This document shows positions 55,512 to 57,768 of a stretch of 64,000 nucleotides of DNA, one piece after another; the first letter of the stretch is position 1; every line of letters starts with the position of its first letter. The notes under the pieces are model-generated. The model saw only the letters and a program-made list of their open reading frames with translations, had not been told where the DNA came from and did not search any database. The stretch lies in assembly GCA_019038745.1 (NCBI GenBank), contig JAHOYV010000037.1, positions 1 through 64,000 on the forward strand. The letters run 5' to 3'. A program made the translations under genes and the position numbers. The DNA comes from Gemmatimonadales bacterium (GTDB lineage Bacteria > Krumholzibacteriota > Krumholzibacteriia > LZORAL124-64-63).

Positions 55512-56879
55512 ATGATCAGATTGAAAAATTTGTTCGGTCGGGAAGGATGGTTGGCGTTGCTGCTGACTTTCGTCCTGGTTGTCCTGTCCCAGGGACTGGA
55601 CTTGAGGAAATCGTGGGCCGAGGGTGGGAACTGGAAAAACGTCACCCTGATCTATTCCACGGACATCAAGGGAAAAATCGAGCCTTGTGGCTGAAAGTCT
55701 AAGCAGCGTGGCGGGGTGGCCCGGAGGGCCGCCTTTTTAGATTCTGTTTGGGAAGAAAAAGTGCCTGTCCTGATGGTCGATGCCGGCGATATGTTCGGCC
55801 GGCGCAATAAAAACGAGCGCTTCCAGACCCGATTTCTTAGCGAAGTATGCGGCAGCTTCGGCATGGACGCAATCGGCCTGGGTGAAATGGACCTGAACTA
55901 TGGGATAGGGTTCCTCCGGGAAATGGTGGAGAAGTACGAACTTCCCTTCACCAACGCCAACGTGCGGGACCAGGTTACCGGGGAACTGATTCTGCCCGAA
56001 TATCTGATCGTAGAAAAAAATGATATCAAGTTCGGGATCATCAGCGTATTGGACCCGATCCGCAAAATTGTGACCATGTCCAACAAGGATCCGGAGTTTG
56101 AGATCCAGGATCCGATAGCCGTGTTGCGGGAACTGGTTCCCCGCGTCCGGGAGGAGGCCGACATCATCCTCCTGTTGGGGCACCTGGGTGACAAGAAACA
56201 CGAAACCGCCGTCAAGGAAGTCAAGGGCATAGGCATTTGCGTCAACGGCCATACTCATCGCAACTTGACCACTGAGCGGATCATTGATGACACGGCCATG
56301 CTGACGGCAACCTATGAGGGACGTTACATCGGTCGGGCGGATCTCTTCGTGGACGACAAGGATGGCCAACTAATGGCCTTTGATGTCTCCGTCAAAAGTC
56401 TGGATCAAAGCCAACCGGATTCCGAAGAAGTGTTGCAGCTGGTCGAGGACTACAAAAAGAGGCTCAAGGAATTCCAGCTGGTCAAGCGATCCGATTTTCC
56501 CAGGAACCTCGGTTCCGACAAGGAGCAGTTCCTGGTCGATCGCTCTTGTATGGGTTGTCACGAGGAAGCTTGGCAGGTTTACGCGAAATCGGGCCATAAG
56601 CGGGCTTTTGTCACTTTGCGCAACAAGGGCCAAAATTTCGAACCGGAGTGTCTGTCCTGTCATACTACGGGCTATATGCACAAGAACGGCTATTCTGACC
56701 AAAGGCCGTTCAACCACCTTGTGAATGTTCAATGCGAGGCGTGCCATGGATATGGGTCCGAGCATAATCGGGACGGTAAATGGGTGACTCGGGCCAAGGA
56801 TTCGTGCGTGATCTGTCACGACAAGGAAAACAGTCCGAATTTCGACTATGCGACCTACTGGGAAAAGATCAAACACTAG
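55512..56879 (+). CDS. Probable selenoprotein: exported metallophosphoesterase-tetraheme cytochrome c fusion
   Basis: Read from ATG 55512 (after GGTTGGAG), the frame gives a 455-aa protein if the in-frame TGA at 55692-55694 is decoded as selenocysteine (U61). The N-terminus has a membrane/signal segment (GWLALLLTFVLVVLSQGL), then YSTDIKGKIEPCGU and KSKQRGGVARRAAFLDSV. Relatives of this UshA/5'-nucleotidase-like family have a Cys at that site in an 'EPCGC...GGxARR' motif, so TGA replaces Cys, not an arbitrary residue. VPVLMVDAGDMFG, LLLGHLGDKKHE and CVNGHTHRNL are the phosphoesterase metal motifs. The C-terminus carries four haem sites: CMGCH, CLSCH, CEACH and CVICH, as in cytochrome c554-like proteins. 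A SECIS-like hairpin follows the TGA. The alternative is a nonsense-mutated gene; the conserved reading on both sides argues against it. Confidence 0.78.
55692..55733 (+). promoter_or_regulatory. UGA codon with candidate bacterial SECIS hairpin
   Basis: TGA at 55692-55694. A hairpin lies at 55710-55733: upper stem GGCCC / GGGCC (55718-55722, 55726-55730), loop GGA (55723-55725), lower pairing GGC / GCC with a 5' bulge GGGGT ending in T. The loop starts with G and lies 28 nt after the UGA, within the 16-37 nt expected for bacterial SECIS elements. It needs SelB binding tests or covariance data. Confidence 0.6.
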
Positions 56880-56889
56880 CTGGTTGTTC

Positions 56890-57768
56890 ATGTGCCTGCT
56901 CAGATCCTACCAATCTTTCTTCCGGCCGGACTCGGGTATTCCGGGTTCGGTCGGTTTTCGTTTTTCCCGTCTTTTTGATCGGGTATCCCTGCTCTTTCTG
57001 TTTTTGTTGCTCCTGTTGAACGGTACCCAGGCTCATGCTTTGGATTTCTTCACTCTCTGGCGGCAACCGAACATTCCTTTGCAGATCACAGAGGGGTCCT
57101 GGGCGGATTACCGCACCCAGGTTATGAAGGGGGGGCGGCGGGAGTCGAACCTGGTTCGGATATCCTGCCTCGACAGGCCTTTCGGTACGGACGACGAATC
57201 CTGGGCAATCGAACTGCTCTTTCTGGAGGAGAAGAAGGATGGTTCCCTCGTACCCCTGCCGGGTCAGGGAACGAGGCTGCGGATCTCTCGTGAACTTCTG
57301 AACCGTGAGGGGCAGTTGCTGGATTTCGTCCTTGAGATTGATAAATGGCAGGATGGAATAGGGAAATCGATCTCGCCTGAGGAGATACGTGATGATCCGT
57401 TGCTGGCTGCCTACTTCTCCTCGGAATTCGTCCCCGACCAGCTGGTGGTCACCGATCAGACCACCCGGGTCGTTCAGGGTCGCCAATTGCTTTGTGATCA
57501 ATTCACCATGGCTGCGGTGGATTCCCAGAGCGCTCGCCTGCCTGCCGGAGAAATGATCCAGGTCTCATCCTGGGAAATTACCGCTGCCGTCAACAGCGAG
57601 GTTCCCTTTCTGGGTCTTGCCTTTGTTACCGAGCGTGTCCGGTCCGAATCTCGGCTTGATCCTCCGAACAAGCGGATGAATATGCCGCCGCCGCGGATCC
57701 GGGTGGAGTTGATGGAGTTGGTTGCTTTCGGGATAGGCGCGGAGCCGGTTCTGGGGATGTTCAATTGA
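56890..57768 (+). CDS. Exported protein of unknown function next to the cytochrome
   Basis: About 292 aa from ATG 56890, 10 bp after the cytochrome stop; in-frame ATG 56848, inside the cytochrome gene, is less likely. A strong hydrophobic segment (VSLLFLFLLLLLNGTQAHAL) forms a signal peptide or anchor. The mature part is beta-rich: SWADYRTQVMKGGRRESNLV, WAIELLFLEEKKDGSLVPLP, QLLCDQFTMAAVDSQSARLP. No CxxCH and no known family. It is probably co-expressed with the cytochrome and may be its envelope partner. Confidence 0.7.
   Translation: MCLLRSYQSFFRPDSGIPGSVGFRFSRLFDRVSLLFLFLLLLLNGTQAHALDFFTLWRQPNIPLQITEGSWADYRTQVMKGGRRESNLVRISCLDRPFGTDDESWAIELLFLEEKKDGSLVPLPGQGTRLRISRELLNREGQLLDFVLEIDKWQDGIGKSISPEEIRDDPLLAAYFSSEFVPDQLVVTDQTTRVVQGRQLLCDQFTMAAVDSQSARLPAGEMIQVSSWEITAAVNSEVPFLGLAFVTERVRSESRLDPPNKRMNMPPPRIRVELMELVAFGIGAEPVLGMFN

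Follow-up and report, generated by a model that had tools for sequence, protein, structure and literature searches.

A UshA-like tetrahaem selenoprotein in a Krumholzibacteriota genome and its probable role in periplasmic redox chemistry

The window (the whole stretch of Krumholzibacteriota DNA that was analysed, 64,000 nucleotides) contains a frame of 455 codons at 55512–56879 on the + strand, which ends with TAG and has a single internal stop, the TGA at 55692–55694. An earlier note on this DNA had described the frame in the same way and with the same coordinates, and both were correct. The frame reads MIRLKNLFGREGW...YSTDIKGKIEPCG-U-KSKQRGGVARR..., followed by four CxxCH sites. The features of the locus are as follows.

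55512–56879, + strand: UshA-like tetrahaem selenoprotein gene (455 aa; ATG start, TAG stop; residue 61 = Sec; 283.3 bits to NF041198).
55512–55619, + strand: N-terminal signal/anchor segment (hydrophobic core at about residues 12–28 by hydropathy; helix 10–36 in the predicted model).
55632–56411, + strand: calcineurin-like/5'-nucleotidase N-domain with an eroded active site (residues 41–300; profile and structure matches).
55692–55694, + strand: TGA read as selenocysteine (Sec61 in a P-C-G-Sec motif; aligned column: TGA 61, Cys 17, gap 2, other 0).
55714–55734, + strand: putative SECIS hairpin of the bacterial type (−21.4 kcal/mol; 9 bp by the alignment, 10 bp when the window sequence itself is folded).
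56529–56876, + strand: c554-like tetrahaem cytochrome c domain (residues 340–455; Pfam Cytochrome_C554, 48 bits against a cut-off of 20.8; cytochrome c554 1bvb, E 5e-21).
56547–56561, + strand: CxxCH haem site 1 (C346–H350), from sequence; invariant in 80/80 homologues.
56649–56663, + strand: CxxCH haem site 2 (C380–H384), from sequence; invariant in 80/80.
56733–56747, + strand: CxxCH haem site 3 (C408–H412), from sequence; invariant in 80/80.
56805–56819, + strand: CxxCH haem site 4 (C432–H436), from sequence; invariant in 80/80.
56893–57768, + strand: downstream gene with a secreted-looking product, conserved 3' of the selenoprotein gene in 16 Krumholzibacteria loci.

Export and haem attachment require an N-terminal signal/anchor segment. 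The protein has the four CxxCH motifs and the hydrophobic N-terminus of an exported tetrahaem c-type cytochrome, from which we infer that it is exported to the periplasm and carries attached haem. The earlier note had proposed a fusion with a cytochrome that carries four CxxCH sites, and this is supported.

In Krumholzibacteria the gene lies in a conserved block, in the order LptD, HU, selenoprotein gene, secreted protein of unknown function and exonuclease. The conservation of LptD, HU and exonuclease around it suggests vertical inheritance of the selenoprotein gene. The window neighbours (LptD, HU, exonuclease and a two-component kinase pair) were considered as a clue to function and set aside, as a vertically inherited block carries little information of this kind. 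The listed homologues of the 56893–57768 gene overlap the selenoprotein gene or lie within 13 bp of it (16 loci matched), and the two genes are possibly co-transcribed. The product of 56893–57768 had no Pfam or NCBIfam match, and no gene for a redox partner was found next to the selenoprotein gene in the window's own clade.

We consider it close to certain that UGA codon 61 is decoded as selenocysteine, a judgement that comes from sequence analysis. The earlier note had called the protein a selenoprotein, and it had proposed aligning homologues at the UGA and searching the genome for selA, selB, selC and selD. In the wider alignment of 80 homologues, the residue-61 column contained TGA in 61 sequences, a Cys codon in 17 and a gap in 2; the 78 sequences with an aligned residue showed nothing other than TGA or Cys. 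The note's expectation that relatives carry Cys at this site was therefore right in that Cys does align there in 17, but most relatives (61) have TGA and Cys is the minority form. The same exclusive exchange at exactly this codon was seen in independent genomes from several phyla. When the U/C label was placed on a tree of the 78 proteins, five changes were needed, and well-supported branches force no fewer than two of these. Within the same family of genomes, full-length orthologues each contained exactly one in-frame TGA, with two exceptions (in genomes G011 and G020; locus L047 and a relative), in which a second TGA lies elsewhere in the match. For the part of the gene 3' of the TGA, comparison with the same-genus orthologue gave dN 0.18 and dS 2.77 (saturated), indicating strong purifying selection downstream of the TGA.

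The Sec machinery was searched family by family in the host genome (G000; 3.58 Mb, 112 contigs, 91% complete), which has Candidatus Krumholzibacteriia MAGs as its nearest named relatives, and all four genes were present: a tRNA-Sec (selC) with a TCA anticodon (UCA in RNA) at 68.9 bits (cut-off 47), SelB at 331.7 bits (cut-off 242), SelA at 457.1 bits (cut-off 268) and SelD at 360.6 bits (cut-off 125). The selD gene (L049, G000:C26:32771-33688) itself carries one in-frame TGA and probably encodes a selenoprotein, as in other bacteria. Global recoding of TGA was ruled out: TGA is the ordinary terminal stop of the neighbouring conserved genes for FolC, a ROK kinase and the exonuclease, so the genetic code is not globally changed. 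Across genomes, SelB was present in 26/31 of those with the Sec form vs 7/16 of those with the Cys form, as counted in MAGs that may be incomplete; we tried SelB presence as a sharp predictor of the form and found it only partial. One Eisenbacteria genome (G098) contains both forms, Cys and Sec (L089 and L109).

The putative SECIS hairpin has a 3-nt apical loop, GGA, at 55723–55725, 28 nt after the TGA. A model of the bacterial SECIS summarised in PMC13188914 sets four constraints, and the hairpin at 55714–55734 agrees with all of them. Among 38 distinct Sec genes, 88.3% of the alignment cells were paired, vs 34.8–54.7% when the partner strand was slid. The covariation score was 0.261 vs 0.168 in shuffles and was reached in 0 of 500 shuffles, a count that is not to be read as a probability; four pairs showed changes on both sides. 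The hairpin also followed the form of the gene. Six core positions were paired in 86–95% of Sec genes vs 41–47% of Cys genes, hairpin positions in Cys genes being 41–59% paired, and the Arg71 codon was CGG in 52/61 Sec genes vs 2/17 Cys genes. Folded alone, the window hairpin was not significantly stable (z −1.25); we dropped the single-sequence fold as evidence, and the case for the SECIS is thus a comparative one. Together, the Sec machinery, the exclusive Sec/Cys exchange and the conserved hairpin support the earlier claim of a selenoprotein. Two of the conditions that the note had set for refuting it, missing selA/selB/selC and residues in homologues that differ from Sec and Cys, were checked, and both outcomes favoured the claim.

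It is very improbable that the TGA is a true stop, be it in a pseudogene, from a faulty assembly or between two distinct ORFs (one of 81 aa, the other of 387 aa with a GTG start at 55716): a GTG start candidate does exist 3' of the TGA and the single-sequence fold is not significant, but codon 61 is only ever TGA or Cys in independent genomes of several phyla, dN/dS after the TGA is far below 1, the second ORF would be without the signal segment required for haem attachment, and the genome has a complete Sec machinery. We accordingly rejected a pseudogene, an assembly error and a separate second ORF, on the conservation of the TGA in orthologues and on purifying selection.

The protein belongs to a known family. 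It scored 283.3 bits (P0001) against NF041198, 'UshA-like (seleno)protein' (UshA_like_PCGU), above the curated cut-off of 275, and contains the P-C-G-(U/C) motif as IEPCGU at residues 56–61. Residues 331–455 alone matched NF041198 positions 402–519 of 519 with 99.6 bits; the model thus extends over the cytochrome part, indicating that the fusion belongs to the known family. The window protein shares the PCGU motif and the two-domain layout of NF041198 and does not differ from it in kind, although its Krumholzibacteriota branch has scores close to the cut-off and did not appear in the selenoprotein papers searched. A family 'COG0737, UshA-like, CxU' was reported among the GOS selenoproteins in 2008 (PMC2398784) and was listed again in 2022 (PMC9312934) and 2026 (PMC13188914). 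The earlier note had presented the combination of domains as unusual; as a point of novelty this falls away, since NF041198 already spans the cytochrome part and the CxU family was published in 2008. The selenoprotein is a well-supported addition to the NF041198 family. We found no assigned activity for NF041198, and no mention of selenocysteine together with Krumholzibacteriota in the literature searched, the coverage of which was incomplete. A related family, NF049981 ('UshA-like (seleno)protein family 2'), has a related N-domain but is listed with a CxxU motif, and its model of 262 positions is too short for the cytochrome domain; the window protein scored 33.5 bits against it, far below the cut-off of 140.

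The best solved relatives of the N-domain were 5'-nucleotidases, as judged by both profile search (E 1.4e-40) and a Foldseek search with the predicted model (E 5.6e-23; mean pLDDT 91.2, pTM 0.83). UshA and CD73 (PDB 1ush, 5h7w, 3ivd) gave the best structural and profile matches. HMMER alignment to 5'-nucleotidases put the canonical metal and catalytic residues, whose roles in the UshA family are well established, at positions 51, 53, 93, 125, 126, 224, 247 and 249. None of the 80 homologues kept at least six of these eight. The catalytic His of GNHE (126) was lost in 80/80, and His was found at position 53 in 10 homologues and at position 249 in 5 of the 80; the window protein has K at 53, a metal-1 histidine position. 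The GNHE motif and metal-1 histidines of UshA and CD73 are lost here, and the full set expected of a dinuclear metallophosphoesterase (DxH, GD, GNHE, H and GHxH) is not conserved. The Krumholzibacteria clade largely keeps D51, D93, E/D125, H224 and H247, so that a mononuclear metal site is possible there, and to judge from these residues one metal could still be bound; outside this clade, D51, H224 and H247 vary widely. The 'metal-dependent phosphoesterase' of the earlier note is thus right as to the fold, which is that of the 5'-nucleotidase N-domain, and fails as to the dinuclear metal and catalytic residues.

The redox motifs showed the opposite pattern. C59 was fixed in 77/78 sequences, U/C61 in 78/78, and the four CxxCH motifs in 80/80. 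Cytochrome-less paralogues of about 330 aa contain an SCGC motif and are likewise without GNHE, indicating that the CxC/CxU motif goes with the fold and is independent of the haem domain. In one relative (L130, 7736-9103) Sec is kept and the CxU motif reads AGGU, with Gly at the position of its Cys, suggesting that in some members the selenol may do without the thiol.

The C-domain of 5'-nucleotidases, which binds the substrate in UshA and CD73, was not found in a Pfam scan of the window protein; the c554-like tetrahaem domain stands where it would be. This domain matched cytochrome c554 (PDB 1bvb) and other multihaem c cytochromes, from which the window protein differs in that the domain is fused behind a selenocysteine domain. 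Besides those of the CxxCH motifs, the histidines H362 and H418 were present in 80/80 homologues and H455 in 76/80. These three are candidate distal ligands for the four haems, and one haem might then be five-coordinate. A multihaem cytochrome c selenoprotein, MccSep (PDB 9wt8-9wtc, U325A mutant), was solved recently and also combines multiple haems with Sec. Only a single haem stretch of 34 residues matched the window protein (E 0.01) and its Sec lies at 325, indicating that MccSep is another family; a literature search for MccSep found nothing relevant.

The genes around family members in other phyla were also examined; their counts are raw tallies over the loci examined. A DsbA gene lies directly downstream in Nitrospinota/Nitrospirota loci, and a gammaproteobacterial Cys form (L113, 8001-9881) has a DsbA-like thioredoxin domain fused at its C-terminus. 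In a clade that includes Eisenbacteria (L094, L095, L102, L106, L107), DUF1573, rhodanese and MauE genes lie upstream and a 4Fe-4S protein gene lies downstream, and a redoxin gene adjoins L120. Among 19 loci on the Desulfobacterota side, 8 have a gene for a 16-CxxCH NapC/NirT-type cytochrome next to the family gene, and 6 have a 9-haem cytochrome accompanied by a membrane cytochrome b. Tandem Sec genes, in which a cytochrome-less PCAU form directly precedes a tetrahaem PCGU form, were observed in L195 (5897-6871/4409-5815), L200 (4054-5025/5131-6495) and L203 (5065-6021/6137-7522), and the two genes of each pair have their in-frame TGA at equivalent sites; all three pairs adjoin a 16-CxxCH NapC/NirT-type cytochrome gene.

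The loss of the hydrolase residues, with the CxU/CxC motif and haem sites invariant, suggests redox chemistry rather than phosphatase activity, and the protein is probably an electron-transfer enzyme, not a hydrolase. That it is both a Sec protein and an exported haem redox protein we hold with good confidence. We also think it probable that the exported NF041198 member works in the periplasm as a redox enzyme, electrons passing between a selenol/thiol pair and the four haems. Cys59 and Sec61 would lie on a loop just after strand 1, at the sheet end with the acid/His cluster D51, D93, E125, H224 and H247, and would form the reactive site, either as a selenol/thiol pair or by providing a further ligand to a metal. 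This site would reduce or oxidise a small substrate or a protein thiol, with electrons moving between it and the four haems in either direction, and the haems could be linked either to DsbA/Trx-like partners or, by way of multihaem cytochromes, to the quinone pool. A point against this reading is that none of the neighbours in the window's clade (LptD, HU, the secreted protein of unknown function and the exonuclease) is a redox partner. Sulfur species (disulfides, persulfides, polysulfides) are our best guess for the substrate, a guess that we offer tentatively; the step from gene context to substrate is the weakest of the mechanism, and the different contexts in other phyla may mean different substrates.

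It is conceivable, though we think it somewhat unlikely, that the protein is an electron-transfer or chaperone-like partner of thiol proteins and not a small-substrate enzyme, for example one that oxidises or reduces a DsbA-like or a MauE/rhodanese partner. It is a special case of the redox mechanism, so that our confidence in the two overlaps. It would account for the DsbA seen with Cys forms, as the next gene downstream or as a fused domain, for the rhodanese-MauE-DUF1573 cluster and for the redoxin neighbour, but Krumholzibacteria have no such neighbours, and none turned up in the examined Desulfobacterota-side loci, where membrane multihaem cytochromes adjoin the gene instead.

A hydrolase that uses selenium is improbable. 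In such an enzyme the calcineurin-like domain would still bind metal, with Sec as an extra ligand or a nucleophile, and would cleave phosphate or, like SoxB, an S-S or S-sulfonate bond, the haems serving a coupled oxidation. The retention of D51, D93, E125, H224 and H247 in the window's clade favours it, as does the similarity to 5'-nucleotidases and to SoxB, a weaker relative of the N-domain (E 2.6e-21 with profile A4; 74 bits, 73.9, for P0001). The SoxB thiosulfohydrolase (TIGR04486; PDB 2wdc) has the same calcineurin-like fold and is a periplasmic enzyme of a cytochrome c pathway, like the setting proposed here. The window protein differs from SoxB in its score (73.9 bits, with the SoxB cut-off at 550), in having a haem domain, and in belonging to a family in which the metal ligands of the superfamily are not conserved. 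Against a hydrolase, the metal-1 histidines (K53 and position 249) and the Asn-His of GNHE are not conserved, no homologue of 80 keeps six of the eight residues, and D51, H224 and H247 vary widely beyond the window's clade.

NF041198 is widespread; in a family-profile search, related sequences turned up in 96/198 genomes of one other phylum, many with TGA. One more member of a catalogued selenoprotein family is ordinary, and it is the function that could matter. The eroded hydrolase site, together with the invariant CxU motif and haems, points the search for that function away from phosphatases and towards redox chemistry, and the gene contexts name candidate partners: DsbA, NapC/NirT-type multihaem cytochromes, rhodanese and MauE. 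A more speculative possibility is that a 5'-nucleotidase-type hydrolase domain, having lost its catalytic residues, became a haem-wired selenol redox site, giving a new class of periplasmic respiratory oxidoreductase. The substrate of that class would probably be sulfane sulfur, disulfides or related oxidised species; the enzymes might, again tentatively, be made in many phyla in Sec and Cys forms, with tandem Sec genes beside 16- and 9-haem membrane cytochromes on the Desulfobacterota side.
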